Source of the DNA: Alphaproteobacteria bacterium
GTDB taxonomy: Bacteria; Pseudomonadota; Alphaproteobacteria; Caulobacterales; Aquidulcibacteraceae
Direction: 5' to 3'
NCBI GenBank assembly: GCA_018969015.1
Contig: JAGWZE010000019.1
Location: 1 to 64,000, forward strand
Length of the DNA: 64,000 nucleotides
Numbering within the stretch: the first letter of the stretch is position 1; the number at the start of each line of letters is the position of its first letter. Below, one piece after another: positions 30,932-58,046 of the stretch. A model generated the notes under the pieces. It was given only the letters and a program-made list of their open reading frames with translations. It ran no database searches and had not been told where the DNA came from. A program made the position numbers and the translations under genes.

Positions 30932-32455
30932 TCACGAATACACGAATTCCGGCCCGTCCAGATCGATCGCGGGGATGTCGTCCTTTTCGCGCCAGTAGTC
31001 CTGCGTGTGGCGCCATTCCGGCTTGGGGCCGCATTTCGGCAAAAGGTGCGCGCCGCGCTGGATGTAGCCGGGATTGAAGTCCTCCTCGTCGATCCAGGGG
31101 CCGAGCGGCGCGGACGCGTCCTCCGGCGGCAGCTTGACCTCGACGGCATGGGCGCCGCGCGCGTCCATGTGCGCGAGCAGGCGGCACACGAACTTGGCGA
31201 GCAGATCGACGCGCAGCGTCCAGCTGGCGCGAAAATAGCCGAACACCCACAGATAATTCGGCAGGCCGGTGAACATCATGCCGCGATAGGTGACGGTGTC
31301 GGAGAGTTTCACCGAACGTCCGTCCACGGACAACGCGATGCCGCCATCGGCGCAGAGATTGAAGCCGGTGGCGGTGATGATGACGTCGGCCTCCAGCACC
31401 TCGCCGGATTTCAGCTGCACGCCGGATCTGGTGAAGCGCTCGATCTCGCCGGTGACGACGCTGGCCGCGCCGCTCGCGACGCCCTGGAAGAGATCGCCAT
31501 CGGGCACGAAGGCGATGCGCTGGCGCCAGGGGCGGTAGCGCGGCGTGAAATGGGTGGCGACATCGTAGCCCTCGGGCAGAAGCGCGGCGACGCCGGCCAG
31601 CAGCTCCTGCTTCACGGCCTCCGGCTCCTCGCGCGCGCGGCGCGTGAACTCGGCCTGATCGAACAGCACCTTGCGGCGCACGATCTCGTGGATCCAGGTC
31701 TCGTCGATCTCGAGTTGGCGCAGCTGCGTGGCGAGATCGTTCGCGTTGCGGCCGGGGATGAAATAGGTGGGCGAGCGCTGCAGCAGCGTGACGTGCGCGC
31801 ATGTTCCCGCGATCGCGGGAACGACGGTCGCGGCCGTGGCGCCGGAGCCGATCACCAGCACGCGCTTGCCCGTAAGGTCGAGATCGGCGGGCCAGGTCTG
31901 GGGATGCACGATGCGGCCGCCATAGGCGTCCATGCCGGGCCATTCGGGCGTGTAGCCCTGGTCGTGGGCGTAGTAGCCCTGGCACATCCACAGGAAGCCG
32001 GCGGAGAACACCTGTTCGGCGCCGTCGGCGGTGCGGGCGCGCACCGTCCAGCGCTGTTCGGCGGAGGACCACGCGGCGCTTTCGATGCGGTGGCCGTAGC
32101 GGATGTGGGCGCCCAGATCGCTCTCGTCGATCACCTCGCGCATGTAGGTGAGGATTTCCTCCGCCGTCGCGATCGGCGGGCCCACCCACGGCTTGAACTC
32201 GTAGCCGAAGGTGTAGAGATCGCTGTCGCTGCGGATGCCGGGATAGGTATGCGTCGTCCACGTCCCGCCGAACGTCTCCTTCGCCTCCAGCACGACGAAG
32301 CTTTTGTCCGGGCACTGACGTTTGAGGCGCCACGCGGCGCCGATCCCCGAAATGCCGGCGCCGACGATCAGTACGTCGACGCGCGTGGCGCCTTCGGCGC
32401 GGGGGGGCGGCTTTGGCGTCGCGCGCGGCGCGGTGGTCGTTTTCGTCCCTGCCAT
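30932..32455 (-). CDS. Flavin-dependent monooxygenase (Baeyer-Villiger/FMO type)
   Basis: 507 residues. The N-terminal FAD motif is VLIVGAGISGIGAAWRL; FGGTWTTHTYPGIRSDSD follows, and a second Rossmann motif VLVIGSGATAATVVPAI binds NADPH. It most resembles the subgroup of flavoprotein monooxygenases that includes ethionamide-activating EthA-like BVMOs. It is predicted to insert oxygen into ketones or oxidise S/N atoms. Start ATG 32455 has GAGGA upstream; 32467 is an alternative. Confidence 0.9.
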   Translation of the reverse strand: MAGTKTTTAPRATPKPPPRAEGATRVDVLIVGAGISGIGAAWRLKRQCPDKSFVVLEAKETFGGTWTTHTYPGIRSDSDLYTFGYEFKPWVGPPIATAEEILTYMREVIDESDLGAHIRYGHRIESAAWSSAEQRWTVRARTADGAEQVFSAGFLWMCQGYYAHDQGYTPEWPGMDAYGGRIVHPQTWPADLDLTGKRVLVIGSGATAATVVPAIAGTCAHVTLLQRSPTYFIPGRNANDLATQLRQLEIDETWIHEIVRRKVLFDQAEFTRRAREEPEAVKQELLAGVAALLPEGYDVATHFTPRYRPWRQRIAFVPDGDLFQGVASGAASVVTGEIERFTRSGVQLKSGEVLEADVIITATGFNLCADGGIALSVDGRSVKLSDTVTYRGMMFTGLPNYLWVFGYFRASWTLRVDLLAKFVCRLLAHMDARGAHAVEVKLPPEDASAPLGPWIDEEDFNPGYIQRGAHLLPKCGPKPEWRHTQDYWREKDDIPAIDLDGPEFVYS

Positions 32456-32595
32456 GGTGGTCCTCATCTCGTGCGGGAGACACGCAAGCGCGGCGAGCAT
32501 GCGCCGATTGTGGCGTGCGCGCACGGTGCAATTCGCCACGGCGCGTGCGGCTTTGGTCGAACCGCGGGCGCCGTTAGGGCGCCTCCGAACGCGTC

Positions 32596-33282
32596 TCACC
32601 AGGGGATCGGTTTGCCGTCGTAATTGAAGAACTTGCCGCTGTCGGCGGGGCCCGCGCCGTCGAAGATGGCCTGCTGTCCGGCCACGCACGCGTCGACGTC
32701 GACGGGCGCGTTGGCGCCGCCCATGCGCGTGCGCACCCAGCCGGGATGCAGCGCCAGCACCGTGACGCCGCGGGCGCGCAGATCCGTGGCCAGCGCCTTC
32801 GTGATCATGTTGAGCGCGGCTTTCGAGGCGCGGTAGGCGTAGGCGCCGCCGCTGGCGTCGGCGATCGAGCCGAGCTGGCTGGACTGGTTGGCGATCAGGC
32901 GGCGCGACGAGGCGGCGACGTTTTCGGCCAGCGCCTGTGCGACGAGCAGCGGCGCGAGCGTGTTCACCGCCATGACGTCCATGAAGGTGGTGGCGTCGAT
33001 CGCGCCGAAGCCGTGGCGATCGCCGAGGCCGGCATTGTTCAACAAAAGATCGATCGGCTGATCGCCGAGCGCCTGCTTCAGACCCGCGGGGCCCTGCGGA
33101 TCGCGCGCGTCGAACCGCAGGATCGTAAGGCGGTCCGGATGGGCGCGCCCGAGCGCCTCGAGATCGCCCGCCTCCGAGGGCAGACGCGCGGTGGCGAAGA
33201 CCCGCACGTCGCGGGCCAGGAAGCGCCGCGTGTGCGCAAGCCCGATGCCGCGATTGGCGCCGGTGATGAGGACCGTTCGCAT
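32596..33282 (-). CDS. Short-chain dehydrogenase/reductase
   Basis: 228 residues. The cofactor motif is TGANRGIGLAHTRRF; LLNNAG and the catalytic Ser (NQSSQLGS) and YRASKAALN are in place, so this is a classical SDR. The C-terminal FNYDGKPIPW is usual for its group. It precedes the flavin monooxygenase in the same direction with a 140-base gap, so a shared pathway (alcohol to ketone to ester) is conceivable but not shown. Confidence 0.93.
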   Translation of the reverse strand: MRTVLITGANRGIGLAHTRRFLARDVRVFATARLPSEAGDLEALGRAHPDRLTILRFDARDPQGPAGLKQALGDQPIDLLLNNAGLGDRHGFGAIDATTFMDVMAVNTLAPLLVAQALAENVAASSRRLIANQSSQLGSIADASGGAYAYRASKAALNMITKALATDLRARGVTVLALHPGWVRTRMGGANAPVDVDACVAGQQAIFDGAGPADSGKFFNYDGKPIPW

Positions 33283-37804: not shown

Positions 37805-38464
37805 ATGGACCAGGCCAATCTCATTTGGATCGCGCCGGCGGTGCTCGGGCTGCTCGGCGCCCTGCTGGTGATCGGCGGCGTCGTGCGGCTGTTCAAATCG
37901 CCCCTCGGCGGGGTCGTGCGCGCGGTGAGCGGCTCGGCGCTGCTCGGCGCGGGGGCGGCGGTCGGCCTTCTGGGGCTCAACATCCAGACCTATCAGCGCC
38001 TGTCCTACGAACAGCCCGTGGCGGAGATTACGCTACGTCAAACCGGGCCGCAGGCCTACATCGCGACGGTGCGCCAGGCCGACCTGTCGGCGAAGGAGTA
38101 CGAGATCCTCGGCGACCAGTGGCAGCTCGACGCGCGCGTGCTGAAGTGGAAGCCGTGGGCCAATGTCGTCGGTCTCGACGCCAGCTACCGGCTCGAGCGC
38201 CTGTCCGGCCGCTATGCCGACGTCGCGGCGGAGCGCACGGCGCCGCGCAGCGTGCATCAGCTGGCGGCCAATCCCGGCCTGGACCTTTGGGCGCTGGCTC
38301 AGGAGTACGGCAAGACGGTGCCGGTGGTGGACACGCTCTATGGCAGCGGCGCCTACATGCCGATGGCCGACGGCGCGAGCTACCAGGTGACGATGAGCCA
38401 GTCCGGCCTCGTCGCGCGGCCCTCCAATACGCAAGCACAGCAGGCCGTCGCGACCTGGAAGTGA
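37805..38464 (+). CDS. Conserved membrane-anchored protein (often labelled cation/multidrug efflux pump)
   Basis: 219 residues. Two N-terminal hydrophobic segments (about 8-30 and 42-62) lead to a beta-rich extracytoplasmic domain with AEITLRQTGPQAYIATV and SAKEYEILGDQWQLDARVLKWKPW. I recall this type of alphaproteobacterial protein being annotated as an efflux pump, but nothing in it resembles a transporter. ATG 37805 is chosen; an upstream start at 37778 adds nine polar residues. Convergent with the cyclophilin gene. Confidence 0.75.
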   Translation: MDQANLIWIAPAVLGLLGALLVIGGVVRLFKSPLGGVVRAVSGSALLGAGAAVGLLGLNIQTYQRLSYEQPVAEITLRQTGPQAYIATVRQADLSAKEYEILGDQWQLDARVLKWKPWANVVGLDASYRLERLSGRYADVAAERTAPRSVHQLAANPGLDLWALAQEYGKTVPVVDTLYGSGAYMPMADGASYQVTMSQSGLVARPSNTQAQQAVATWK

Positions 38465-38483
38465 CGGGCGGCGCGCCGCGCCT

Positions 38484-39416
38484 CTAGGGTTTCGGCGGCG
38501 CGCGCACCGGGATCGGCACGTTGCACAGATCGATGTAGCCCGCCGGGCGGACGTACCATTCGTCGCGCCGGTTGCGCCGCGCTTCGACGAGGGCGGTGAA
38601 GGTGGCCGTGTCCGTGCGCAGCACCTCGATCGGCGTGCGCTCGCTCTGCGGCAGGTCGGCGGCGAGGCGGACGCGGACGATCGGCGTGCGCTGATCCGGC
38701 GTTTCGTAGAAGCCGAGCGGGCCCGTGCCGCGCGGCAGCGTGGTCAGGAGCGACATGCCCTGCAGCACGCGGCCGACGATCGTGACGTTGTGATCGAGGT
38801 TGCGCGGGGCATGGCCGATCACCGCGTAGAGCTCCGTGCCGGCGCCGCTGTCGGGCGCGGTGTCGCGGCCGACGCCGACGGCGCCAGGGCAGTGGGCGAG
38901 CCACACGTCTTTGCGGTCCCGGCCGGCGGGAAAGCCCTGCACGAACCCGACTTCGCGGGCGTAGCCGTCCTTGTCGGGCAGGCGCGTGAACGCGGGCGCG
39001 CCGGCGCGCGGGCGCTGGAATTCGGCGGGGATGGTGGACGCGGCGGCGCCGAGCGGGCGCTTGGCGTCGTCCGGCGCGGGATCGCCCCACTGGACGACGT
39101 AGTTCTCCTGCACGCGCAGGATCGCGAGACCGTCGAAATAGTTGGCGCGCACGAGCGTCTTGATGTTGCCGATCGTCTTCGGCGCCATCTCGGGCGCAAG
39201 TTCGATCACCACGCGTCCGGCCGCGAGGTCGAGATACATGAGGTTTGCGGGATCGGGCGTGCGCCAGTCCGACGGGGCGGAGGCCGCGAGGATGTCGGCC
39301 ATCGTGAGCGGCTTCGCCGGAGGCGGCGCCGCGCGCGCGGGCGCCGTAACGGCAAGGCCCGCCAACGCCAGCGCCACGAGGGCGCCGGCGCCAAGACGAC
39401 GATCGCGGCGCGTCAC
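38484..39416 (-). CDS. Cyclophilin-type peptidyl-prolyl isomerase, exported
   Basis: 310 residues with a signal peptide ([18 protein letters not shown]). Cyclophilin-like core: [41 protein letters not shown] and [16 protein letters not shown]. Several canonical active-site residues (the F-x-R-x-I segment) are altered to LAILRV, so activity is plausible but unproven. GTG 39416 overlaps the stop of the old yellow enzyme gene (GTGA). Last gene of a four-gene coupled operon. Confidence 0.85.
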
Positions 39417-40510
39417 GACAGCGTCTTCAGCGCGGCGGGGCTGAAGGACATGAGTTCGTCGTGGCGGTCGTCGCGCACCTTCACGGCCCAGGCCGGATCC
39501 ACGAGCAGCGCGCGGCCGACGGCGACGAGATCGAAGTCCCCGCGGTCGAGGCGGCGCTCCAGCTCTTCGAGCGACGCCGGTTGCGAGCTTTCACCACGAT
39601 AGGCGCCGACGAACTCGCCGCTGAGGCCGACGGAGCCGACGGTGATGACGGGCTTGCCCGTGAGCTTCTTGGCCCATCCGGCGAAGTTGAGATCCGAGCC
39701 TTCGAACTCCGGCTCCCAGAAGCGGCGCTGCGAGCAGTGCAGGAAATCGGCGCCGGCGTCGACGAGCGCGCCGAGCCACACGCCCAGTTCGTCCGGAGTC
39801 GGCGCGAGGCGTGCGGTGAAGTCCTGCTGCTTCCACTGCGACAGGCGGATGCCGATCGTGAAGTTCGGCGCGGTGGCCGCGCGGCACGCCTTGATGACGG
39901 CGACGGCGAAGGCGCAGCGGTCCTTCAGCGTGGCGCCGCCCCATTTGTCGGCGCGCTCGTTGGTTCCGCCCCAGAAGAACTGGTCGATCAGGTAGCCGTG
40001 CGCGCCGTGCAGTTCGATGCCGTCGAAGCCGAGCTTGTGGGCGTTGGCCGCGGCTTCGGCGAAGGCGCGGATCGCGTCGTCGACGGCGTCGAGCGTCATC
40101 GGCTCGGTGAAGGGCTTGCCGGGCGACGCCTGGCCGGAGGGGCTGTCGACGGGCGAGGGCGCGTAGTCCTTGATGGCCGGATTGCGCAGCGCGCCGACGT
40201 GCCAGACCTGGGGCATGATGAAGCCGCCGGCGGCCTTCACGCGCTTGACCACTTCGGCCCAGCCGGCGAGCGGCGCATCGCCGAAGAACACCGGCACGTT
40301 CGGATCGTTGCGCGAGGCCGGGCGGCTCGGCGCCACGCCCTCGGTCAGGATGAGGCCGACGGCGTTGCGGGCGCGGCGTTCGTAATAGGCGGCGACGTTG
40401 TCGCCCGGCACGCCGCCCGGCGCGAACGACCGCGTCATCGGCGCCATCACGATGCGGTTGGGGAGCTTCAGCCCGTTGAGCGTGTAGGGGGTGAAAAGCG
40501 ACGACGTCAT
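39413..40510 (-). CDS. Old yellow enzyme family NADH:flavin oxidoreductase
   Basis: 365 residues, FMN-dependent TIM barrel reducing activated C=C bonds. Visible elements: [41 protein letters not shown] and [11 protein letters not shown]. The active-site pair appears as HGAHG. Its ATG overlaps by one base the stop of the DUF1295 gene. Third gene of the coupled operon starting at 42740. Confidence 0.94.
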
Positions 40511-41295
40511 CACTTGTCCTTTTTCGGAGCGAGGAAGGGGAAGAAGCCGGTGCGCGCGGCGTAATCGGCGTAGTCGCTGCGCGTGCGCAGCATCTTGCGT
40601 TCGACGAGGGGCGCGCCGGACCAGCGCATCAGCAGGAAGCCGATGACGAGCGGCGAGACGAGCGCCCACCAGGCGCCGTAGCTGGCGGCGAGCGCGGCGA
40701 AGCCGGCCCAGAACATGATCTCGCCGACATAATTGGGATGGCGCGACAGCGCCCACAGGCCCGACGTCAGCGTCTTGCCGGCGTTGTCGGGATTGGCCTT
40801 GAACGCCGCGAGTTGCGAGTCGGCGGTGGCCTCGATCAGCACGCCGACGAGCGCGACGACGGCCAGGCCCCAGCCGATCGGGCCGGGCTCGACGCCGTCA
40901 TGCAGCAGCGAGCCCCAGATCGGCAGGCAGACGACGAGCGAGAGCATCGCCTGCAGACCGACGACGCTCCACAGCGAGCGCAGGCGGAAGCCCGGCCCGG
41001 CCTTGCGGCGCATCGAAGCGTAGCGGGAATCCTCGGCGCCGTGGCGGCGCCAGCGCGCGATCAGATAGACAGCGAGACGCACGCCCCACAGCGTCGTCAG
41101 CGAAGCGGCGAGTTTTTCGCTCGTGGTCAACGCGCCGTCGGCAAGCGCGCCCGCCCACACGCCGGCAACCGGCGCGAGGCCCCAGAAGCTGTCGAGCGGC
41201 GTCAGATCTGCGATCGCGGCGGTGATCGCCCACGCGAGCAGGAACACCGCCAGCGTGGCGCCGGCGGCGACGAGAAGCACCATGGGATCGGTCAC
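40510..41295 (-). CDS. DUF1295 membrane protein (steroid 5-alpha-reductase-like)
   Basis: 261-residue protein with about seven membrane segments. SRHPNYVGEIMFWAG followed by a terminal YADYAARTGFFPF are the DUF1295/5-alpha-reductase signatures. Family members reduce or methylate lipophilic substrates. GTG 41295 overlaps the carotenoid oxygenase stop (GTGA). It sits between a dioxygenase and an ene-reductase, suggesting action on a polyene or terpenoid. Confidence 0.9.
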   Translation of the reverse strand: MTDPMVLLVAAGATLAVFLLAWAITAAIADLTPLDSFWGLAPVAGVWAGALADGALTTSEKLAASLTTLWGVRLAVYLIARWRRHGAEDSRYASMRRKAGPGFRLRSLWSVVGLQAMLSLVVCLPIWGSLLHDGVEPGPIGWGLAVVALVGVLIEATADSQLAAFKANPDNAGKTLTSGLWALSRHPNYVGEIMFWAGFAALAASYGAWWALVSPLVIGFLLMRWSGAPLVERKMLRTRSDYADYAARTGFFPFLAPKKDK

Positions 41296-42740
41296 GCGGC
41301 GGGCCTTCCGCGTTGGAGGTCTTGGCCGATCTGATCGGCGCGGGCCCAGGTCGCGTGGAAGCCGAGCGGCACGCGTTGCGGCAGGGCGATCCGCGCCAGC
41401 GGCGGCGCGTCGAAATTGCGCGCGTCGATCACCAGCGCTTCGGATTTGCCCGTCGCCTCCTCGGTGACGATGGTGATGACGTAGCCGTCGTCCTCCGCCG
41501 TCGCGCCCTCGCGCGGGGCGAAGGCGGGCTCGGAACCGTAGACGCCTTTGGGGAAGACGTGGGCGACGTCGCGCCCGGTCTCGAGATCGAGCTTGGTCAG
41601 CGCGTCGAACTTCTGCAGATCGCCGGGCGCCATCGAGACGAGATAGCCGTGCTTCGTGCGCCGGCCCGTCTTGTCGAGATTGACGACCGGGAACTCGGTG
41701 ATTCGGTCGTTCAGCTGGGTTTCCGTAACGGCGCCTGTCTTCAGGTCGAAACGCCACAGGATCGGCACGGCGTGCAGCGCGAGCACGCCCACCATCGGCG
41801 CGAAGGCGCCGTAGAGCGCCGGATCGGGATTGAGGCCGTTCGGCACCATCTTGCACGCGGCCATCACCACGGCGTCGCCGTCGTCCCACGCGTTGATGAC
41901 GTGATAGACGTAGCAGCTCGGCACATCGAACCAGCGCGTCGTCTCGCCCGATGCGCCGCGGGCGAGAACGCCGAAGCGCGTCGGTTGATCGGCGGTGCGG
42001 ATGTTCCAGGTTCCGCGGCGGATTGCGGCGTCGGTGAAGACGACGGGCAGATCCATCAGGACGACGTGCTTGGCCGTCAGTCCCATGTCGTGCGGCAGGC
42101 GCGGGCCCGGCAGCGGCACCTGCGTGAACCAGTCGAGCGTGCCGGCGGCGGAGATCGCGCCGACCGACATCCAGGGCTCGTAGAGCGCGTAATCGAAGAA
42201 CACGAGCTCGCCGGTTTCTGGATCCGTTTTCGAGTGCGCGGACATGTTGCGCGGCAGCTTGCCGGAGAAGGTATCGGCGCGGATCGTTTCGAGCGTGTTC
42301 GGATCCACCGCGATCGGCACGCCGGAAATGTACCAGAGCGCGTAGAGCTTGCCGCCGTGGACGATCACGTCCGTGTTGGCGGTGTCCTTGTAGACGCGAT
42401 TGCCGGCGCGGCTGCGGTTGGCGGGGGTGAAGATGCCGGCGGCGTCGAGGGCGCCCGCGCGCTCCGCGGCGAGATCGGGCGTGCCGACGTAACGGTTGCG
42501 GTAGCGGACCTTGCCGTTCTCGAACCACAGCGCGTGCAGCATGCCATCGCCGTCGAACCAGTGGTGCGGGGCGCCCGGCGCGCGTTCTGGGTTGGGGCCG
42601 TTGCGGACATAGAGGCCGCGCAGGTCACGCGGCACCTCGCCGATGACGGGAAGGTCGACGCCCTCGACCTCCGTCGTGACCGGGGCGTAGGGCCCCGCCA
42701 GATAGGGATTCATGGCGTTCACGCCGCCGCCGCCGTCCAT
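41292..42740 (-). CDS. Carotenoid oxygenase family dioxygenase
   Basis: 482-residue seven-bladed propeller enzyme with a four-His iron centre. Expected His ligands are visible in SAHSKTDPETGEL (HSK replaces the usual HPK), LPHDMGLTAKHVVLMDLP, VYHVINAWDDGD and VPLGFHATW. The family cleaves carotenoids, apocarotenoids or lignin-derived stilbenes, and these cannot be separated here. ATG 42740 has GAGGAGG five bases upstream. First gene of the coupled operon, divergent from an MBL hydrolase. Confidence 0.93.
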   Translation of the reverse strand: MDGGGGVNAMNPYLAGPYAPVTTEVEGVDLPVIGEVPRDLRGLYVRNGPNPERAPGAPHHWFDGDGMLHALWFENGKVRYRNRYVGTPDLAAERAGALDAAGIFTPANRSRAGNRVYKDTANTDVIVHGGKLYALWYISGVPIAVDPNTLETIRADTFSGKLPRNMSAHSKTDPETGELVFFDYALYEPWMSVGAISAAGTLDWFTQVPLPGPRLPHDMGLTAKHVVLMDLPVVFTDAAIRRGTWNIRTADQPTRFGVLARGASGETTRWFDVPSCYVYHVINAWDDGDAVVMAACKMVPNGLNPDPALYGAFAPMVGVLALHAVPILWRFDLKTGAVTETQLNDRITEFPVVNLDKTGRRTKHGYLVSMAPGDLQKFDALTKLDLETGRDVAHVFPKGVYGSEPAFAPREGATAEDDGYVITIVTEEATGKSEALVIDARNFDAPPLARIALPQRVPLGFHATWARADQIGQDLQRGRPAA

Positions 42741-42952
42741 CCGGGCCTCCTCAGGGTGGGGGCGTCGGAGCGTCCCCTCGTTGGGAGGCGACGCTAAAGC
42801 CGGCGCCTCGCCCCGACAAGTGCGCAGCGAGTGGGGGGCGGACCGATCACGCCCTCGCGCGCTGGCGCCGTCCGGCCGCCGTTGCGCACGGCGACGCGGC
42901 GTGGTGCGATGGCGTCCAGGGTCGCGCCCGGCGGCGACCAGGGAGGGCGACA

Positions 42953-43930
42953 ATGCGCACGGCGCGATACGAGAAGGGCCTCCTCGATCTTGGCGGCGGC
43001 GCCTACGCCTACCTGCAGCCCGATGGCGGCTGGGGCTGGTCCAATGCCGGGTTCATCCGCGACGGCGACCGCTCCCTGCTCGTCGACACGCTGTTCGACG
43101 AGCCGTTGACGGCGGAGATGCTCGCCAAGATCCAGGCCGAGACGGGCATCGGCGCCGATCGCATCGGTACGGTCGTCAACACGCACGCCAATGGGGATCA
43201 TACCCACGGCAACGCGCTCGTCGCGCATGCGGAGATCGTGGCGTCCGAGGCGAGCGCGCACGAGATGGCGGAGTTCTCGCCGCAGCTCCTGGCGCAGCTC
43301 AAGGCCGCCGGCGCGGCGGGGCAGATGGGGCTCGCCGGCGAGTATTTCGCCGAGGTGTTCGCGCCGTTCGATTTCGCGGGCGTGCGCGGCAAGGCGCCGA
43401 CACGCACGTTCCGCGAGCGGCTCGAAATCCGCGTCGGCGACAAGCCGGTCGTGCTCACCGATGTCGGCCCGGCGCACACGCGCGGCGACGTCATCGTCCA
43501 TTCGGTGAAGGATCGCGTGGTCTATACCGGCGACATCCTCTTCATCGAGGGGACGCCGATCATGTGGGCGGGGCCGGTCGGCAACTGGATCCGCGCGTGC
43601 GATCTGATCCTTTCGCTCGACGCCGAGGCGATCGTGCCGGGGCACGGGCCGCTCGCCGATGCGGCGGCGGTGCGCCGGGTGCAGGACTATCTGCGCTACA
43701 TCGAGCGCGAGGCGCGCGCGCGTTTCGAGGCGGGCATGGGGGCCGAAGAAGCCGCGTTCGACATCGCGCTGGGCGATTTCGACTCCTGGGGTGACGCCGA
43801 GCGCATCGCCGTCAATGTCGATACGCTCTATCGCGAATGGCGCCACGACCACGCGCCGCCGAACGCCGTCGCGTTGTTCGGGCTGATGGGCAAGCTCGCG
43901 AAAGAGCGGGCGAGCCGGAAGCGGGGCTGA
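42953..43930 (+). CDS. MBL-fold metallo-hydrolase
   Basis: 325 residues. The metal motif is TVVNTHANGDHTHGN (HxNxDH variant of HxHxDH), followed by GPAHTRGDVIVH and VPGHGPLAD. This variant is common in SoxH-like and quinoprotein-relay MBL proteins. No signal peptide. It is divergent from the carotenoid oxygenase operon across about 210 bases and may act on its products. Confidence 0.92.
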   Translation: MRTARYEKGLLDLGGGAYAYLQPDGGWGWSNAGFIRDGDRSLLVDTLFDEPLTAEMLAKIQAETGIGADRIGTVVNTHANGDHTHGNALVAHAEIVASEASAHEMAEFSPQLLAQLKAAGAAGQMGLAGEYFAEVFAPFDFAGVRGKAPTRTFRERLEIRVGDKPVVLTDVGPAHTRGDVIVHSVKDRVVYTGDILFIEGTPIMWAGPVGNWIRACDLILSLDAEAIVPGHGPLADAAAVRRVQDYLRYIEREARARFEAGMGAEEAAFDIALGDFDSWGDAERIAVNVDTLYREWRHDHAPPNAVALFGLMGKLAKERASRKRG

Positions 43931-43945
43931 GGGCGAGCCTTGGCC

Positions 43946-44039
43946 GTCATCCTCGGCGCGCTGCAGGCGCGCCGGGGATCCAGCGGCCGCAGCACCGCGC
44001 CTGGATCCCCGCCCTCGCTGCGCTCGGTCGAGGATGACG
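43946..44039. repeat. Dispersed palindromic repeat R1, copy 4
   Basis: 94-bp unit GTCATCCTCG ... CGAGGATGAC with the internal GGATCC pair, between the convergent MBL and monooxygenase genes. Confidence 0.88.
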
Positions 44040-44068
44040 GAGACGTAGTCTCCGCCCCGGCGATGCGC

Positions 44069-45877
44069 CTACTCGAACGCCAGGCCTTCGAATTTGCCCG
44101 AGCGGCGCCAGCCGTCGATGTAGTGGAAGTAGGCGACGGCGCCGTAGGGGTAGCCGACGTAGGAGCGTGCGACCGGGCCGGGGTCTTTGCCTTCGTTGTT
44201 GTAGTAGCCCGGCGTGCATTCCTGCGAGCCGATCATCAGGCCCGGGCCGGAGAGCAACAGCTTCACCCAGGACTGCTCCGCTTCGGCCGTGACCTCGACG
44301 GTGCGCGCGCCTTTCGCCTGCGCCGCCGAGACGATCGCCGCGATGGTTTTCGCGGAGTCGTACAGGTTGTGCGGCACGTTGGAGATCAGGTTCGCGCCCT
44401 GCGTCGGTTGCACGAAGAAGGCGTTCGGGAAGCCGTGCACGTGGATGCCGTGCAGCGAGCGCATGCCTTCGGCCCAGTGCTGCGAGAGGGTGCGCCCGTC
44501 GCGCCCGACGGGATCGAAGCCCGTGCGGCGCGTATATTCGGTGCCGACCTCGAAGCCCGATGCGAAGATGAGGCAATCGAGCTCATAGGTTTTGCCCGCC
44601 ACGACCACGCCTTCGGGCGTGATGCGCTCGACGCCTTTGCCGTCGGTGTCGACGAGCGTGACGTTCGGGTTGTTGAAGGCCTGCAGATAGGCGTCGTGGA
44701 AGCACGGGCGTTTGCAGAGCTGGCGGTACCAGGCTTTGAGCTTGTCCGCGGTGTCCTTGTCCTTGACGATGGTCTCGGCGCGCGCGCGGATTTCCTCCAT
44801 CTTCTCGTAGTCGGCGTCTTCCCAGGCTTTCAGCATGTTTTCCGGCGTGCGCTGGTCCGGCGGGAGATCGACGATCTTCGCGCGGATGCGGCGCGAGATT
44901 TCGGTCCAGCCGTCCTGCACGAGATCCTCGGTGGGAAAGCCGGCGGCCTGGTTCTCGGTGAAGTTCATCAGCCAGCGTTCCTGCCAGCCGGGCGTCGCGA
45001 TCGAGGCGAACCAGTCCGGATCGATCGGCGCGTTGTTGCGCGCATCGACGGAGGAGGGCGTGCGCTGGAAGACGTAGAGCCGCCCCGCCGTGCGCGCGAG
45101 ATGCGGCACGCATTGGATCGACGTCGCGCCGGTGCCGATGATGCCGACGCGCTTGTCGGCGAGCTTCGTCATCGGCGCGCCGAGCGGATCGCCGCCGGTA
45201 TAGGCGTAGTCCCAGCGGCTGGTGTGGAAGGCGTGGCCGGCGAAGCTGTCGAGCCCGGGAATGCCGGGGAGCTTGGGCACGTGCAGCGGCCCGGTGCCGA
45301 GGCCGAGATACTGGGCGGTGAAAGCGTCGCCCCGGTTCGTCTCGATGCGCCAGACCTTGGCGGCGTCGTCCCACGTCAGCGTGCGCACTTCGGTGTGCAA
45401 AAGCGCATGCTCGTAGAGGTCGTACTTTTTGGCGATGCGCTGGCACTGCGCGAGGATTTCGGGCGCGTGGGCGTATTTCTCGGTGGGCCGGTGGCCCGTT
45501 TCTTCGAGCAGCGGCAGATAGATCATCGAGGCGGTGTCGCACTGGGCGCCGGGATAGCGGTTCCAGTACCAGGTGCCGCCGAAATCGCCGCCCTTCTCGA
45601 TGATGCGGACGTCCTTGATCCCGGCTTCCTTCAGCCGCGCGCCGACGAGCAGGCCGGCGAACCCGCCGCCGATGAAGGCGAACGTGACGTGATCGGTTTT
45701 CGGCGCGCGCGGCGTGACGGGCGTATAGGGATCGTCGAGATAGTGCCCGAACTGGCCGGCGATGCGCACGTACTGGTCATTGCCGTCCGGCCGGAGGCGC
45801 TTGGCGCGCTCCTCGGCGTATTTGCGGCGCAGGGCTTCTTTGTCGACCTTCGGACGTGCGGCGTTGGTGGTCGTCAC
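44069..45877 (-). CDS. Baeyer-Villiger monooxygenase (cyclohexanone/phenylacetone type)
   Basis: 602 residues. FIGGGFAGLLVGARL (FAD), GGDFGGTWYWNRYPGAQCD, the BVMO fingerprint FAGHAFHTSRWDY (FxGxxxHxxxW-D) and VGIIGTGATSIQ (NADPH) are all present. It converts ketones to esters or lactones. An N-terminal extension of about 75 residues is usual for the phenylacetone-monooxygenase-like group. GTG 45877 has GGAGGA upstream. Single gene. Confidence 0.95.
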   Translation of the reverse strand: MTTTNAARPKVDKEALRRKYAEERAKRLRPDGNDQYVRIAGQFGHYLDDPYTPVTPRAPKTDHVTFAFIGGGFAGLLVGARLKEAGIKDVRIIEKGGDFGGTWYWNRYPGAQCDTASMIYLPLLEETGHRPTEKYAHAPEILAQCQRIAKKYDLYEHALLHTEVRTLTWDDAAKVWRIETNRGDAFTAQYLGLGTGPLHVPKLPGIPGLDSFAGHAFHTSRWDYAYTGGDPLGAPMTKLADKRVGIIGTGATSIQCVPHLARTAGRLYVFQRTPSSVDARNNAPIDPDWFASIATPGWQERWLMNFTENQAAGFPTEDLVQDGWTEISRRIRAKIVDLPPDQRTPENMLKAWEDADYEKMEEIRARAETIVKDKDTADKLKAWYRQLCKRPCFHDAYLQAFNNPNVTLVDTDGKGVERITPEGVVVAGKTYELDCLIFASGFEVGTEYTRRTGFDPVGRDGRTLSQHWAEGMRSLHGIHVHGFPNAFFVQPTQGANLISNVPHNLYDSAKTIAAIVSAAQAKGARTVEVTAEAEQSWVKLLLSGPGLMIGSQECTPGYYNNEGKDPGPVARSYVGYPYGAVAYFHYIDGWRRSGKFEGLAFE

Positions 45878-45975
45878 GGTGTCCTCCCTGGCGGCCGTTC
45901 GCGCCGGCCGTCCGTTCGGGAGATCATGGGCCGACGCACGCCGCGACGCCAGACCTCCGCGGCGGCGCCGTTACG

Positions 45976-47037
45976 TCAAGGCGGCACGGGCGTGGTTGGC
46001 AACTGTTCGACGGTAATGGTGATCGTGTCGGTATACGTGCCGGCCAGCCAGCCTTGGCTCTTGTCGACGATTTTCAGTTCGAGGATGAGCGTTTTGTTGA
46101 AGCCGATCGTCGGATCGGCGTCCAAGTGGTCTCGCGTTTTTTTGGAGCCGATGACGAAGACGTCCCACGTTCCCCAGCCATTGTTGGTCAACCTCGCTTT
46201 GCCGTCATAGCCGATCCGGCTGTTCGGATCGTTGTCACGAAGGAGGATCCCGCCGTTGGCCGATGCGAAGGTCAACCTGTACGGGACGTTCGCCTGGAAC
46301 GTCGACGATACCGTCGTCTTCGTGAGAAAGTTCAGGTCCGGAAACTGCGTCGGTTGCAATTGTCCGTCGCTCTCGACGCCTCCGAAGGATCCCGGATTGA
46401 CCGCGGCGGGAAACTTGATGACCAGCGGGATGTCGATGGTCTGTTCCGGGCACTCAGGCTTTGGCGTATAGGCGCTCAAAGCTGTCGGCGTGACATCGGG
46501 CGCGCACGGGGAGCCGATCGGAACGACGATGTAAGCGAGCCGGAGCGGGACCGAGTATTCACCGGCGAGCGGCACGCCCTGCGATCCGTAGGAATTGACC
46601 GCTATGGTGAAGCGCCAGCCCCAGCTCCGGTTGTTGCGCCCCTTCCTCGCATACATTGCGCCGGCGACGTTCTGGCCTGGAACGGCATTGCCCCACGGGC
46701 CGCCGGCGAGCCAAACCGCGGCAGACAATCCGTTCACGTTGTATCCGGGCGTCCAGGTCGTCGCGTTCGGATAGGCCGGATCGATCAGCCGAAATCCCAC
46801 CGCGCAATCCGCTTCGCGGCTGGCGATCGTGAGGTAGAAGTCGATGAAACGAATGCGCTGGTGATGTTCCAACGGGTCGTACGTCCAGACATAATTTGTC
46901 GTTCGGTCGACCGATACGCCGACGTTCGACGGCTCGCAGGGCGCGGCGCCCGCGGATGGCGCCGCGACGAGCCCGAGCGCCCCGGCAACACATGCAAAAA
47001 GGACCGCGCGCACGCGCGCGCAAAGCATTCCGATCAT
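45976..47037 (-). CDS. Chaperone-usher pilus tip/adhesin candidate
   Basis: 353 residues. A signal peptide (GALGLVAAPSAGA) precedes a Cys-containing beta-rich protein; the C-terminal part ends KIVDKSQGWLAGTYTDTITITVEQ, the form of a pilin-type donor/acceptor domain. Its ATG overlaps the usher stop (ATGA), and it is the last gene of the operon, the usual place of a two-domain tip adhesin. Assignment as adhesin is inferred from position and architecture. Confidence 0.75.
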   Translation of the reverse strand: MIGMLCARVRAVLFACVAGALGLVAAPSAGAAPCEPSNVGVSVDRTTNYVWTYDPLEHHQRIRFIDFYLTIASREADCAVGFRLIDPAYPNATTWTPGYNVNGLSAAVWLAGGPWGNAVPGQNVAGAMYARKGRNNRSWGWRFTIAVNSYGSQGVPLAGEYSVPLRLAYIVVPIGSPCAPDVTPTALSAYTPKPECPEQTIDIPLVIKFPAAVNPGSFGGVESDGQLQPTQFPDLNFLTKTTVSSTFQANVPYRLTFASANGGILLRDNDPNSRIGYDGKARLTNNGWGTWDVFVIGSKKTRDHLDADPTIGFNKTLILELKIVDKSQGWLAGTYTDTITITVEQLPTTPVPP

Positions 47038-49697
47038 GAGGTCACCTTGAGGGAGCCGAGGTCGACGAGCGCGTCCTTGGCGGGCGCGATGGAGAAGGTG
47101 GCGAGCTCGGTGTCGCCGGCGCGGATCGCATAGTCGCCGGGGCCGACCCCTTCGACATAGAACAGGCCACTCGCGTTCGTGAACGTTTCGATCGGCGGCA
47201 GCGGCTTTTCGCCTTTCGCGCGTGACTTCGGCACGATCACGATCCGGCGGCCGGAGAGGGGGGTGTCGCCGTCGATCAGGCGCCCTTGCGCCGACATCCA
47301 GTTCGGGCTGCCGATGCGCAGGACATAGCCCGATCCGAGGCGCGGCGTGACGGTGGTCTCGACGGCGCCGAGCGCGTAGCCATCGGGCAAGTTCTCGATG
47401 TCGAACGCGATGTTCGACGTCTGGTACGGCACGAGGCTCGTGAGCGGGGCGCCCAGAACGCCAGACCGGCGCTTGATGCGATCATTGGCGCTGCCGAGAT
47501 AGACGGTGGCCGACCGCAATGACGGATCGCGCTGGGCGATGGCGAACGCGTCATAGATCGGATGGCCGATGGCGACGACGCCGTCCGCATAGCCAACGCC
47601 GAATGCGAGCGTGGCCGAGCTGATGTTGCGATCGCGCATGACGCGCGAGGCGCGGCCGCCGCTGGTCATCTGCTGCTGCGTGAGCACGCTGAAGCGCGGG
47701 CCGTACCAGTTGGCGTCGATCGTGGTGTTGCGGGCGGTGGGCGTGTTCTGCAGGCGCGCCGTGACCTGTCCCTGACCGCCGGCCATGTCCCGGCGAGGCG
47801 TTTGCAGCTGGGCGGACTGGTTGTTGCGGGTGACGAAGCCGTTCACGGAGCCGCCACGGACCGAACGGGAGAAGGCGAGGCCGAGCGTCAGGCGCGCATC
47901 GTCGCCGCGCAGCTCGTCGCGCCTGTAGGACGCCATCAGCGTCAGCGTCATCCCGCCCATGAAGCGCGACGCGGCGGAAGAGACGCTCCAGCTGGGCTCC
48001 CGGTCGCGCAGATCGCGGTACTGCGCGGAGATGTCGAAGGCCTGCCGCGGGTTGCGGTAACCGGCCTGGATCGTCGACGCGAGGCGGATGCCGGACTTGG
48101 GCATGAACACGGTCGGGTCCGGGACGCCCATCTCTTCGGCGGCCCGTCGGGCGTCGGCGGCGGCGGCGGCCTCGACGCCGATGTAACCGGCGCGCGCGGA
48201 TTCCGTCGTCGTCGTCGTGGAGAGAAAGAGCCGGCCCTGGTGCGGGCGGTTCATCGATTGGTAGGTGGCGATGCTCGCGCGCTGACCATCGGCGCCGTTG
48301 ATGGAGCTGAGGCCGAAGGCGGCGCGCAGCGTGCCGCCGGGAATCGGCGTCAGCGCCTCGGCCACGGCGGTCGTGTCGTCGCCGCGCTTCTCCGCGCCGA
48401 GCAGCGCGGTCAGACGCGGCGCTGCGGCCCAGCGATAATAGCCCGTCGCGACGAAGGCGTTGTCCTTGATGCCCATGTCACGGATCTGGCCGAGGGCGAA
48501 CGAGAACTCACTGACGTCCTTCGCGAGCAACTCGGGATCGGCGTACACGTCCAGGTTCGCGGCTTCGCGCAGGCCGAAATCATCCTCGACGAGGACGCGC
48601 ACGCGGTGACTGCCGTAGGTGTCCGTCAGATCGCGCACGTCATACCGACCGCGCCGCATCTTCGTCGTGGTGGTGACGACGCCGTCCACTTCGATCGACA
48701 CGGTGGCGTCGCGGTCGAGATCGAGCTGCGTCCGGCCGGTCGGCGCGAGACTGAAGAGCGGCTGCAGCTCGCGGTAGTTGCGGCCGATCGTCAGGCCGCG
48801 CAGGCGCGCGCGAGTCTGGAATTGGGCGCCTTCCGGATCGAACTCGCCAAGCCGGTAGCGGATGGCGCGCGCCGGGTCGTCGTAGATGACGGTCGTCAGC
48901 TGGCGCTCGACGCTGCCGCCGACGAACCGCGCCGCGCTGCGCAGGACCACGCTGTTCGCGCCGCCAACGGCGATGAATCCGTCGAGCACGCCTTCGGTCG
49001 GCAGCCAGGCTTTGCCGTTCGGCGCGCGCCAATCGTAGCGGCCGGTGATGGAGGCGTTCAGCGCCGCGGACACGCGGGCCGGCTGCAGGCTGGCGCGCTG
49101 CTCCGTCTCCTCTTCGAGCCAGGCGCCGCTCACGCGCCGGACGGGGATGTCCTCCAGCCGCCGCGTGACGCGCACCAGGGCCTGCTCCATGTCGACTTCC
49201 ACGTCGATCAGGGCCGTGGGCGGCAGGGGCAGCTTCACCTCCGGGGCTGAGCCGAGCGCCGCGGCGATGCGGGCATAGGCCTCAGGCGTCAGCCGCCCGG
49301 TCAGCGCCGAGAGCAGCGCGGCGTGCGGGACCGAGACGGCCTCGGGCCGGGCGAAATCGATCGTGACCTCGATCTCGCCGACGGTTTGGCCGTCGATCGC
49401 CAGCGGCAGGGCGACTTTCGGCGTCGGTTCGTGCGGGGCGGTGACGAGCGGCGGGTCGCGGTCACGCGCCTTGGGCCGCCCTCCGAGCAGCTCGGGCTCG
49501 ATGCGGCTCACGTCCGGCGGCGGCAGGACGCTTTCGACGCGGAGCGCCGCCACCGGCGCGATTTCGGCCCGCACGGTAGGCGGTTCCGCGGCGACCGCGC
49601 CGGCGACCGGGACGAAAAGCCATGCGGCAGTACTGAGGAGGCTCGCAATCGTCGAGCGGATCGCGCGACGGGGAGCTGCGCGACGTTCTCGGATCAC
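47034..49697 (-). CDS. Outer-membrane fimbrial usher
   Basis: 887 residues. Signal peptide, N-terminal domain, then a long beta-barrel: GEFDPEGAQFQTRARLRGL, RNYRELQPLFSLAPTGRTQL, the plug-like region DATVSIEVDGVVTTTTKM with YDVRDL, and C-terminal carboxypeptidase-like domains (SGLFYVEGVGPGDYAI). It exports pilin-chaperone complexes. GTG 49697 overlaps the chaperone stop (GTGA). Length and motifs fit non-classical (alternate or archaic/sigma-type) ushers more than FimD. Confidence 0.92.
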   Translation of the reverse strand: MIRERRAAPRRAIRSTIASLLSTAAWLFVPVAGAVAAEPPTVRAEIAPVAALRVESVLPPPDVSRIEPELLGGRPKARDRDPPLVTAPHEPTPKVALPLAIDGQTVGEIEVTIDFARPEAVSVPHAALLSALTGRLTPEAYARIAAALGSAPEVKLPLPPTALIDVEVDMEQALVRVTRRLEDIPVRRVSGAWLEEETEQRASLQPARVSAALNASITGRYDWRAPNGKAWLPTEGVLDGFIAVGGANSVVLRSAARFVGGSVERQLTTVIYDDPARAIRYRLGEFDPEGAQFQTRARLRGLTIGRNYRELQPLFSLAPTGRTQLDLDRDATVSIEVDGVVTTTTKMRRGRYDVRDLTDTYGSHRVRVLVEDDFGLREAANLDVYADPELLAKDVSEFSFALGQIRDMGIKDNAFVATGYYRWAAAPRLTALLGAEKRGDDTTAVAEALTPIPGGTLRAAFGLSSINGADGQRASIATYQSMNRPHQGRLFLSTTTTTESARAGYIGVEAAAAADARRAAEEMGVPDPTVFMPKSGIRLASTIQAGYRNPRQAFDISAQYRDLRDREPSWSVSSAASRFMGGMTLTLMASYRRDELRGDDARLTLGLAFSRSVRGGSVNGFVTRNNQSAQLQTPRRDMAGGQGQVTARLQNTPTARNTTIDANWYGPRFSVLTQQQMTSGGRASRVMRDRNISSATLAFGVGYADGVVAIGHPIYDAFAIAQRDPSLRSATVYLGSANDRIKRRSGVLGAPLTSLVPYQTSNIAFDIENLPDGYALGAVETTVTPRLGSGYVLRIGSPNWMSAQGRLIDGDTPLSGRRIVIVPKSRAKGEKPLPPIETFTNASGLFYVEGVGPGDYAIRAGDTELATFSIAPAKDALVDLGSLKVTS

Positions 49698-50407
49698 TTT
49701 TTACTGTCCATCAGCTTGAGGGTGGCGTTGGGCGGCGCGCGCACGACCAGGCGGCGCGTGCCCCCCGGCGCCACGAACTGCGTCTCGCCGAACGACAGCA
49801 TGCTGAGATTGAACGGCGGCGTGTCGCCGTTGGGCATCGACAGCGCCCAGGGCAGCGCGGAGATGTCGGCGACGGCCTCGCCATCATTGCGGATGACCAC
49901 CGTCATGCCGCCCTCCATCGGGACGGCCGGCTCGGCGAACACCACGGACGGCTTGCTGCGCGGCGGATCGACGATCGTGGAGATCAAGTAGTCCTGCTTG
50001 ATCTTGAGGCCGATGCGCGTGTCGCCTTGCGTCTGCTCGTAGGTGACGACGTTTTGTTGCGCGACCCGCAGCGCATAGATCGCGCCCTTCGCGAGCGGCG
50101 GGCCGACATAGCGGATCATGACCGTCTGCGTTGCGCCGGGGCTGACGCTCGCCTGCGGCGGGAAGATCACGAAATCGGAAGGCGCCGGCGTGAAGGTGCG
50201 CCGGCCGAGTTCGTCGGCCGTCACCGCGGAGATGCTGAACACGACGTCGAGGCGGTCCTTGTCGGTGTTCTGCACCGCGACGCGCAGGCTGGACTTCGGC
50301 CCTGCCGGCGCAATGCGCCCGCTCATCGGCGTCACCGTATAGGCGTCGGCCGGGGAGGCGAGGGCGAGTCCGAACAGGATTGCGACAACGAAAGCGGGGG
50401 AGCGCAT
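49694..50407 (-). CDS. Periplasmic pilus chaperone
   Basis: 237 residues with a signal peptide (FVVAILFGLALASPADA). The two Ig-like domains show YTVTPMSGRIAP, SDFVIFPPQASVSPGATQTV(M) and a second domain starting near NDGEAVADIS. It donates a G1 strand to pilin subunits during transfer to the usher. It starts about 75 bases after the pilin gene and overlaps the usher. Confidence 0.9.
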   Translation of the reverse strand: MRSPAFVVAILFGLALASPADAYTVTPMSGRIAPAGPKSSLRVAVQNTDKDRLDVVFSISAVTADELGRRTFTPAPSDFVIFPPQASVSPGATQTVMIRYVGPPLAKGAIYALRVAQQNVVTYEQTQGDTRIGLKIKQDYLISTIVDPPRSKPSVVFAEPAVPMEGGMTVVIRNDGEAVADISALPWALSMPNGDTPPFNLSMLSFGETQFVAPGGTRRLVVRAPPNATLKLMDSKK

Positions 50408-50481
50408 GCAGGTTCTCGCAAGGGTGTGGAGCGTGGGACGTGGGGGACGGGCGCGCCTTGTGGCGGGCCCGTCCCGCCGGG

Positions 50482-51039
50482 TCAGCCGATCGTGAAGGTC
50501 AGCTGCTCCGTGTACGTCCCGCCGATCCGCGGCCCGTCGCCGGCGGTGTCCTTGCCGACCTTGAGCGTCGCTTTGACGACGTAGTTGCCGTTCGCCAGGC
50601 CCTTCGATGCGGGCGTGCTGGCTTGCCTCTGCTGGTTCGCCGTGAACGTCGCGTCCGTGAGGAAGGGGATCGGCGACGTGTCGCCGGACGCGCTCGACGT
50701 GGCGACGAGAGACAGCGAGTACGCGAGCGACCCGCCGACGGTGGTGTCGGCGACGGTCGTGTTCTTCAGCACGCCATACAGCGCCTGCACGCTCAGCGTC
50801 AGGCCGCCGGCCTTGTTGCACTGGATCTTCTGCGAGAAGACCTCCTGCGGCGTGGCGAGCGTCAGAGACACGTTGGACGCGCCCGTCGCGGACGTGAGGT
50901 TCGGGAAGTTGCAGGTTTCCGGAATCGTTCCGGTGACCGTCGTCGTAAACGTCGTGTTCGGATCAGGATCGGCCGCTGCTGGAACAGCCGAGACGAGAAG
51001 CGCCGCCAGTGCGGCCAAAAGCGTGGACATCGGTTTCAT
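50482..51039 (-). CDS. Major pilin candidate (chaperone-usher)
   Basis: 185 residues. A signal peptide (TLLAALAALLVSAVPAAA) is followed by a Thr/Ser-rich beta sandwich with two cysteines (ETCNFP, IQCNKAGG) able to form the pilin disulfide, and a terminal GTYTEQLTFTIG strand. ATG 51039 has AAGGAGC upstream; ATG 51030 is an alternative. First gene of the pilus operon, so probably the most abundant subunit. Confidence 0.85.
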   Translation of the reverse strand: MKPMSTLLAALAALLVSAVPAAADPDPNTTFTTTVTGTIPETCNFPNLTSATGASNVSLTLATPQEVFSQKIQCNKAGGLTLSVQALYGVLKNTTVADTTVGGSLAYSLSLVATSSASGDTSPIPFLTDATFTANQQRQASTPASKGLANGNYVVKATLKVGKDTAGDGPRIGGTYTEQLTFTIG

Positions 51040-51505
51040 TTCGCGTGCTCCTTGGGCGGTTCGAGGGACGGCCTTGCTTTGGCTCGAACGGCCGTGGACA
51101 CCTGCTAAGAACCGCATGCCAAGGAGTTCAGCATCGCGAAGCCTCGTCACGCAGGGAGGTGACCTGGGTGCGTAAGCGCTTCGCGCGACGCATCTCGCCT
51201 AGTCCATTTGGACTAGGCGAGATGCGGGCGCGGACGGCGCTCGGTGGGCGTCGCGCAGAGCAATGATCCAGTCGAATGCGGACAAGGGGACGCGTGTGGA
51301 GACGGCGGTCGCTGCGGCCTGCCGTCGGTTGTGTGCGCGGCGCTGTCGATGCGGTCACGCGGCTATGGCGGCGTCTGCAGGCGGCCGGCCCGATGGCGCG
51401 CGCTGTATGCGGTTGCGCGCCGGAGGCTGGGCGCACCACGATGGCCCGGGAAACCGCCGATGCACGCTACCCTGCGCGGTCCCCGCGGCGCGCCCGCGTC
51501 CGCGC
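51040..51505. other. Pilus operon upstream region
   Basis: 466 bases between the LuxR-type gene and the pilin gene. Apart from the 17-bp inverted repeat at 51189-51226 I see no gene and no clear promoter consensus. Confidence 0.4.
51189..51226. promoter_or_regulatory. Perfect 17-bp inverted repeat upstream of the pilus operon
   Basis: CGCATCTCGCCTAGTCC and its exact complement flank a 4-base ATTT loop. It lies 150 bases before the pilin ATG and 280 bases after the LuxR-type gene. There is no T tract on either strand, so an operator or a leader hairpin is as likely as a terminator. Confidence 0.6.
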
Positions 51506-55943: not shown

Positions 55944-56019
55944 GCCGCCTTAGCTCAGCCGGTAGAGCATCGCATTCGTAATGCGAGGGTCGCGTGTTCG
56001 AGTCACGCAGGCGGCACCA
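55944..56019 (+). tRNA. tRNA-Thr (anticodon CGT)
   Basis: 76 bases including an encoded CCA. The acceptor stem GCCGCCT pairs with AGGCGGC, D-arm TAGCTCAGCCGGTAGAGCA, anticodon loop TTCGTAA, and T-arm GCGTG TTCGAGT CACGC all fold correctly. The mobile-element remnant begins directly after it, suggesting that its 3' end served as the attachment site. Confidence 0.97.
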
Positions 56020-56085
56020 TTTTTTCCTTAAAAATCAACGTATTGCCCGGCGGCTCCAGAGCCTTCGCGCAGCGCGCGTCTTTCG

Positions 56086-56107
56086 TGCTACCAACCTGCT
56101 ACCAATC
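56086..56107. repeat. Tandem 11-bp repeat downstream of tRNA-Thr
   Basis: TGCTACCAACC at 56086-56096 is followed at once by TGCTACCAATC at 56097-56107. The position, about 70 bases from the tRNA 3' end, suits arm-type binding sites of a tyrosine recombinase, though no integrase gene is visible in the window. Confidence 0.5.
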
Positions 56108-56109
56108 TC

Positions 56110-56467
56110 GCGTTAACGTGTTCATTGGGGCTGAGGAGCCTTTTCGCGCCAAGTCGGCGGCCTTGGGCCCGCAAAATCCGCGAGTGACTGCTGCTTCGCG
56201 CGAGTTAATCGATCAAATGCAGGTTCGATGAACACGGTTTACGAATGGTGACCGGCCAGCTTCAGACGCCCGACCGTCAGGTTCGGTGCTTGAGCGCGTC
56301 GGCGTCGATTCCGTGAGCCAGCCAGTCAGGCAGAAGCTCCTGATCGCGCTGGATAGGGCAGGCCACATGTCGTTTGGAAGCGCACTCAGACCCGAGCCCT
56401 CCGGTCTATCGGGGCGGCCACGACAACTCCACCGCCAGGCGGACAAAGTTGCCGTGGCTGACTTTGT
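56110..56467. other. Gap in the island with no gene seen
   Basis: About 360 bases between the recombinase-site-like repeats and the first HTH gene. No reading frame with coding character on either strand. Confidence 0.4.
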
Positions 56468-56674
56468 TCACCGCGCCAGGGGCTCACTCGTCGAACGCCG
56501 TGTCCGTGCGCGCCCCCAAGTCTCGAGGATGCTCTCCTCGTAGCGCACGAGCCGGGGCCCATACTTCACGAAGGGCGGGCCTTCGCCGGTGACGCGCCAG
56601 CGGTTCAGCGTGTGCTTCGAGATCTGCAGGCGGGCTGCGGCCTGTTCAACCGTGAGCAGAGTGTCTTGCGCCAT
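56468..56674 (-). CDS. Helix-turn-helix (AlpA/excisionase-like) protein 1
   Basis: 68 residues. LLTVEQAAARLQISKHTLNR followed by WRVTGEGPPFVKYGPRLVRY is a MerR/AlpA-type HTH of the kind that controls excision or replication in integrative elements. ATG 56674 follows AAGGAG. Paralogous to the HTH region of the protein at 56941. Confidence 0.85.
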   Translation of the reverse strand: MAQDTLLTVEQAAARLQISKHTLNRWRVTGEGPPFVKYGPRLVRYEESILETWGRARTRRSTSEPLAR

Positions 56675-56940
56675 GGTGGTCTCCTTTTCGCGAGCGCCCA
56701 GCGCGCCGCGCCCACAAAGGAGAACGCCCGAAAACAGGCGGGTAAATCGCCTTCCCCGCGAAAATGAATCATCCGAATTCGGATAGAATCGCGTGATCCA
56801 GATTGTGCTGTCTCAGTCCGTTCCTGGCTTTTCCAGCAAGGAAACCAGACGACCCGCCCTCGCCCTCGATCGCCCTCAATCGCCCAACGCCGCAATTCGC
56901 GCGGCGGACGAAAAGTCAGAACGTCGCAGGTGGGGTCCGA

Positions 56941-58040: not shown

Positions 58041-58046
58041 AGTTAC

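Follow-up and report, generated by a model that had tools for sequence, protein, structure and literature searches.

A recurrent pairing of a carotenoid cleavage oxygenase with a DUF1295 membrane protein in a translationally coupled operon of an Aquidulcibacteraceae genome

Analysis of a 64,000-nucleotide stretch of an Alphaproteobacteria bacterium (Caulobacterales, Aquidulcibacteraceae; assembly GCA_018969015.1, contig JAGWZE010000019.1, positions 1 to 64,000), hereafter called the window, revealed a four-gene operon on the minus strand, which opens with the genes of a carotenoid cleavage oxygenase (CCO) and a DUF1295 membrane protein. The pairing of these two genes is recurrent and apparently undescribed; no description of the pair, of the gene cluster that surrounds relatives of the CCO, or of such a pathway was found in those parts of the openly licensed literature that were available. 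The functional core of the operon is suggested to consist of CCO and DUF1295, acting through the cleavage of a polyene and the subsequent reduction of the conjugated carbonyl product, a reading in which about even confidence is placed. All the enzymes encoded here are from known families. The existing annotation of DUF1295 goes no further than a domain of unknown function, and a recurrent partner of known chemistry therefore provides it with a testable reaction, namely the reduction of conjugated carbonyls derived from polyene cleavage.

The operon is real and translationally coupled. All five genes named in a preliminary description of this DNA were found where it had placed them, with the overlaps of the four minus-strand genes and the divergent orientation of the metallo-β-lactamase (MBL) fold gene; its gene list had overlooked a Baeyer-Villiger monooxygenase (BVMO) type flavoprotein, which is encoded by the next gene beyond MBL. 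The features of the region are as follows.

41292-42740, minus strand: CCO (RPE65/CCO family), operon gene 1, 482 amino acids; Pfam RPE65 (PF03055) 410.7 bits, E = 1e-122
40510-41295, minus strand: DUF1295 membrane protein, GTG start; Pfam DUF1295 (PF06966) 200.5 bits (cut-off 20.4), E = 4e-59, and Steroid_dh 28.9 bits (cut-off 22.6)
39413-40510, minus strand: old yellow enzyme (OYE; FMN ene-reductase family), 365 amino acids; Pfam Oxidored_FMN 187.4 bits, E = 6e-55
38484-39416, minus strand: cyclophilin-type peptidyl-prolyl isomerase; Pfam Pro_isomerase 70.7 bits, E = 2e-19
42741-42952, no strand: intergenic stretch of 212 bases between the CCO start and MBL, presumed place of the operon promoter
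42953-43930, plus strand: MBL-fold hydrolase, divergent from the operon; Pfam Lactamase_B 89.3 bits, E = 4e-25
44069-45877, minus strand: BVMO-type flavin monooxygenase; NF045818 704.1 bits, below the cut-off of 1100, with a BVMO fingerprint

The five Pfam assignments (RPE65, DUF1295, Oxidored_FMN, Pro_isomerase and Lactamase_B) all exceed their curated cut-offs. The CCO gene starts with ATG at 42740, preceded by GAGGAGG. The CCO/DUF1295, DUF1295/OYE and OYE/cyclophilin overlaps are 4, 1 and 4 bases, with the junctions GTGA, TGATG and GTGA, respectively. The first of these depends on the GTG start, since the in-frame ATG at 41283 falls past the CCO stop, and the second becomes 4 bases instead of 1 if the GTG at 40513 is used. 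A scan of 38200-46000 for sigma-70-like promoters gave none; the consensus is poorly matched to a genome as rich in GC as this one. The window comes from a draft genome of 3.4 Mb, in which two CCO genes are found at E 0.001; the second one is 34% identical and lies on another contig.

Recurrent linkage of the two genes carries the proposed core. A CCO scan of genome contigs was used, in which 80 loci were named as the best 80 of 326 confirmed; all counts out of 74 given here refer to the loci with a CCO above 500 bits (52-62% identical to the window CCO). The six named loci left out have 44-45% identical CCOs, and all six carry at least two of the cluster families described below. The loci extend up to 10 kb per side and the contigs are often cut, so that absences are upper bounds. 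DUF1295 is present in 19 of the 74 loci, and in 15 it lies within 2 kb of the CCO. When the whole order was searched, CCO matched in 41 of 398 genomes (40 besides the window genome); this search returned 19 non-own loci, 7 of which have DUF1295 no more than 1.5 kb from the CCO. The DUF1295 search matched 219 of the 398 genomes, and 6 of its best 19 non-own loci have, within 1.5 kb, a CCO that belongs to another subfamily (35-39% identity). Among 13 wider DUF1295 regions, several of which were picked because a CCO was already known there, a CCO occurs in 8 and at least two families of the CCO degradation cluster in 11. On the DUF1295 tree, the proteins linked to a CCO are spread over several separate branches, and their genes occur in same-strand as well as opposite-strand arrangements, which suggests a repeated association and hence a functional link, not one inherited block.

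These results bear on the single pathway that the preliminary description had proposed for the whole gene set, for which the loss of linkage in relatives, leaving the dioxygenase on its own, had been named beforehand as the refuting outcome. The proposal stands for CCO and DUF1295 but finds no support in the comparison for OYE, cyclophilin and MBL, each of which, like BVMO, is absent from all 74 CCO-orthologue loci. With DUF1295 repeatedly found in linkage with a CCO, the dioxygenase does not stand alone.

A gene cluster of degradation type surrounds most relatives of the CCO. Its most frequent members in the 74 loci are a thiolase (40), a double-HxlR regulator (39), an NMO/FabK-like flavoprotein (38) and a PaaN-like aldehyde dehydrogenase (34), followed by two SCP2-type thiolases (33 and 25), two acyl-CoA ligases (32 and 26), a TonB receptor (25) and a short-chain dehydrogenase/reductase (SDR, 23). 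The cluster is seen in Alpha- and Gammaproteobacteria, and parts of it stand beside the 44-45% identical CCOs of Bacillus, Sporosarcina, Nitriliruptoraceae and a Pseudomonas. None of the listed families stands beside the CCO in 21 of the 74 loci, which are mostly from Parvularculaceae. SCP2-type thiolases act on methyl-branched 3-oxoacyl-CoAs, which would suit an isoprenoid chain, and the genes found in the related clusters are consistent with a breakdown of the apocarotenoid type. In the bacteria with these clusters, oxidation of the aldehyde would fall to the PaaN-like enzyme, followed by attachment to CoA and chain shortening through the thiolases; the clusters hint at a route by which carotenoid breakdown products could serve soil and water bacteria as a carbon source. 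In three further regions (L228, L229 and L230), HxlR, an SCP2-type thiolase and DUF1295 occur together with no CCO within those regions; DUF1295 may have a part in the cluster even where this cleaving enzyme is absent.

Membership of the CCO in the RPE65/CCO family is evident from its four histidines and its propeller fold. His169, 217, 280 and 462 align with the iron ligands of VP14 and LsdA and are invariant in 33 aligned relatives. The best sequence matches in the PDB are variants of plant CCD1 (E 2e-73), followed by VP14 (2e-58) and LsdA (6ojr, 4e-54), and the predicted structure (pLDDT 91.8) matches LsdA, VP14, ACO and CCD1 with Z-scores of 46.0, 44.9, 41.6 and 41.3, respectively. The best-scoring NCBIfam model is NF052295 (8'-apo-carotenoid 13,14-cleaving dioxygenase), for which the CCO does not reach the cut-off (272.9 vs 675 bits). 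In the tree, the window CCO and 74 relatives form one clade (100/100) apart from other CCOs, the window protein being on a long branch. The family and the four-histidine iron site are common to the window CCO and the apocarotenoid oxygenases, represented by plant CCD1, a 9,10-cleaving enzyme, and bacterial NACOX1, which cleaves at 13,14 according to the accessible part of the report (PMC5133782). Unlike these, the window CCO lies far under the NF052295 cut-off, belongs to its own 75-row clade and is coupled to DUF1295.

The DUF1295 protein displays the membrane fold of the SRD5A/sterol reductase superfamily, which includes the SRD5A reductases, SRD5A3 and delta14-sterol reductase. Its model (pLDDT 92.8) is closest to PbSRD5A (Z 15.1, rmsd 3.6, 205 aligned), and further matches are delta14-sterol reductase (Z 14.7) and SRD5A2 (13.9), the best unrelated row being at 7.0; the solved structures behind these three matches are 7bw1, 4quv and 7c83. 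DUF1295 differs from these reductases in forming a separate Pfam family with 14-16% identity to the solved structures. A plain Foldseek search with the model returned no match at E <0.001 (4quv 7.6e-3), and the sequence search of the PDB gave chance matches only. The alignment of the window protein with 34 relatives (35 sequences) contains 17 invariant columns. From the modelled fold, DUF1295 is proposed to be an NADPH-dependent reductase of conjugated C=C bonds. Mammalian SRD5A3 turns polyprenal, an isoprenoid enal, into dolichal, as stated in the available excerpt of PMC11607601, and this is relevant because such an enal is a product type that CCOs can make. No paper on the DUF1295 protein itself was found in the available portions of the openly licensed literature.

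From the gene content, linkage, residues and folds, which are established, we infer the substrate, both reactions and their order as follows. The CCO, a non-heme iron enzyme, would act on a non-phenolic polyene, for which an apocarotenoid is the likeliest candidate, and would cleave one C=C bond, leaving an aldehyde or ketone in conjugation with the double bonds that remain. DUF1295 would reduce a conjugated double bond with NADPH, in the manner of SRD5A3 on polyprenal, and the product would then be open to further breakdown. OYE may contribute a second ene-reductase, a soluble one, which would carry out the same reduction on a soluble product. The cyclophilin, the N-terminus of which resembles a signal peptide, is probably a passenger, and the genes of the operon other than CCO and DUF1295 look like local additions.

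Several observations weigh against this assignment of cleavage to the CCO and reduction to DUF1295. The fold comparison of the CCO ranks LsdA first with CCD1 and VP14 near it; it does not part the lignostilbene dioxygenases from CCD1 and VP14, and therefore leaves the substrate undecided. The CCO could accordingly be read as an enzyme of aromatic breakdown that cleaves lignostilbene or isoeugenol, a substrate class which the preliminary description had entertained; LsdA, LSD4 and NOV1 have the fold and the iron site in common with it, and the sequence match to 6ojr is also strong. However, Tyr101 and Lys134 of the lignostilbene dioxygenases bind the 4-hydroxyl of the substrate phenol (PMC8191317, in the part accessible), and in the alignment to LsdA they correspond to Phe104 and Trp136 of the window CCO, the latter being retained in at least 90% of the 33 relatives. 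Plant CCD1 and VP14 are better sequence matches, and the scores of the CCO against the NCBIfam lignostilbene models are far under the cut-offs (220.8 vs 800 and 173.5 vs 650 bits). The replacement of the phenol-binding Tyr and Lys speaks against the stilbene or isoeugenol branch; lignostilbene cleavage was rejected as the principal explanation on this ground and is considered decidedly improbable. The fold of DUF1295 is likewise not exclusive to reductases, as the ICMT methyltransferases have it too (5v7p, Z 12.4; 4a2n, 12.3), and the protein might be an ICMT-like membrane methyltransferase, in which case the CCO product would be modified by it rather than reduced. This appears most improbable, as the three top fold matches are reductases and the window protein exceeds the Steroid_dh cut-off. 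The branch of the window DUF1295 is very long (2.18) and its identity to any relative is 42-45% at most, and its activity may therefore have drifted.

The linkage also has its counter-evidence. DUF1295 is missing from 55 of the 74 CCO loci as delimited above, many of them on cut contigs. Nearest to the window CCO in the tree (90/90, weak) are 17 stand-alone CCOs, mostly of Parvularculaceae, without the cluster families; the stand-alone rows include cut contigs, e.g., L043, L056 and L082. The loci are related and the counts are not independent, and the chance level of linkage is a rough estimate from genome size and copy number. A chance assembly of overlapping genes, in which the CCO acts alone and the rest is carried along with no common pathway, would agree with the many CCO orthologues that stand alone and with OYE and cyclophilin, which are common and unlinked elsewhere. 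In 61 genomes near that of the window, OYE relatives occur in 41, nearly always as a single copy and away from any CCO in the regions examined, and cyclophilin matches occur in 58, elsewhere in the genome in the regions examined. Chance is, however, a poor explanation for a CCO-DUF1295 adjacency that recurs in separate lineages, in two CCO subfamilies and in varied arrangements, and such an assembly is judged unlikely. At the other extreme stands a whole norisoprenoid route, in which the CCO would free an ionone-like enone, OYE and/or DUF1295 would saturate it, BVMO would make an ester by placing an oxygen atom beside the ketone, and MBL would hydrolyse it. The five enzyme types adjoin and their chemistry would run in that order, and an enoate reductase making dihydro-beta-ionone from beta-ionone is described in the accessible part of PMC5944158. 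Against this are the absence of OYE, MBL and BVMO near the CCO in all the loci counted, the opposite strand of MBL with BVMO beyond it, and the distribution of MBL, which is found together with a CCO orthologue in no other of the 398 genomes. The route is regarded as improbable.

The enzymes of that route other than the CCO and DUF1295 were characterised as follows. The OYE protein has an FMN oxidoreductase domain and the motif HGAHGY at 168, HxxHxY being the active-site motif of the OYE family. MBL matches occur in 36 of the 398 genomes of the order, 34 of them from one genus; its 35 other genomes and the 40 other genomes of the CCO orthologue do not overlap. No operon gene lies within ~8 kb of MBL in the two regions examined from two genomes of its usual genus. 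The usual metal motif of the MBL fold is HxHxDH, in place of which the window protein carries HANGDH, as do two relatives, while it passes the Lactamase_B cut-off. A five-gene pathway including MBL was rejected because, among the 398 genomes, only that of the window has both MBL and the CCO orthologue. The type I Baeyer-Villiger monooxygenase fingerprint is FxGxxxHxxxW(P/D), and the BVMO protein has FAGHAFHTSRWD at 212. Its relatives, 74-77% identical, occur in three genomes, in none of them near a CCO, and its membership in the pathway is doubtful; MBL and BVMO are probably both outside it.

Returning to the core of CCO and DUF1295, the complete degradation route is not seen here, since the cluster genes are absent from the window and PaaN from the genome, which counts further against the reading. 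At E 1e-6, the 64 kb contain no cluster thiolase, SCP2 thiolase, acyl-CoA ligase, PaaN, NMO, HxlR or TonB gene. The window shares with the cluster only CCO and DUF1295, plus a weak SDR match, and has none of the SCP2-type thiolase and acyl-CoA ligase set for CoA-dependent chain breakdown that stands beside most CCO relatives. PaaN is absent from the window's genome at 1e-100, and the best NMO of that genome is of the 45% kind present in most relatives. A wider proposal is advanced tentatively, as a possibility somewhat on the unlikely side. On this view, an undescribed bacterial pathway for the breakdown of apocarotenoids or similar methyl-branched polyenes would be widespread, and DUF1295 would be its missing reductase. 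The substrate would be taken up by a TonB receptor and cleaved by a CCO, DUF1295 would saturate the conjugated carbonyl product, and the methyl-branched chain would be degraded by an aldehyde dehydrogenase together with acyl-CoA ligases and thiolases of the SCP2 type; the window would hold a reduced and rebuilt version, in which OYE is coupled to CCO-DUF1295.

Beside the stand-alone CCO of L028 (10415-14178) and of up to 13 more loci from Parvularculaceae and relatives lies a stable divergent run of genes, which by its Pfam matches we take to resemble radA-cvpA-purF.

Elsewhere in the window, a cytochrome P450 gene is located at 4908-6155, far from the operon. A second BVMO/FMO-like flavoprotein gene at 30932-32689 (minus strand), which shares about 24% identity with the BVMO at 44069, overlaps an SDR gene at 32596-33282 (minus strand). 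The stretch 45976-51150 (minus strand) holds a fimbrial-looking run of the chaperone-usher type, made up of a secreted protein, an usher-like protein with a Pfam Usher match below the cut-off, a chaperone-like protein and a small secreted protein; the fimbrial reading rests on sequence appearance, because the last two are without a Pfam match. At the far end (55944-64000), a tRNA-Thr gene is followed by a relaxase/DUF3363 gene (58047-59882) and integrase-core transposase genes (61921-62481 and 63439-63969), which probably represent a mobile element inserted near tRNA-Thr.

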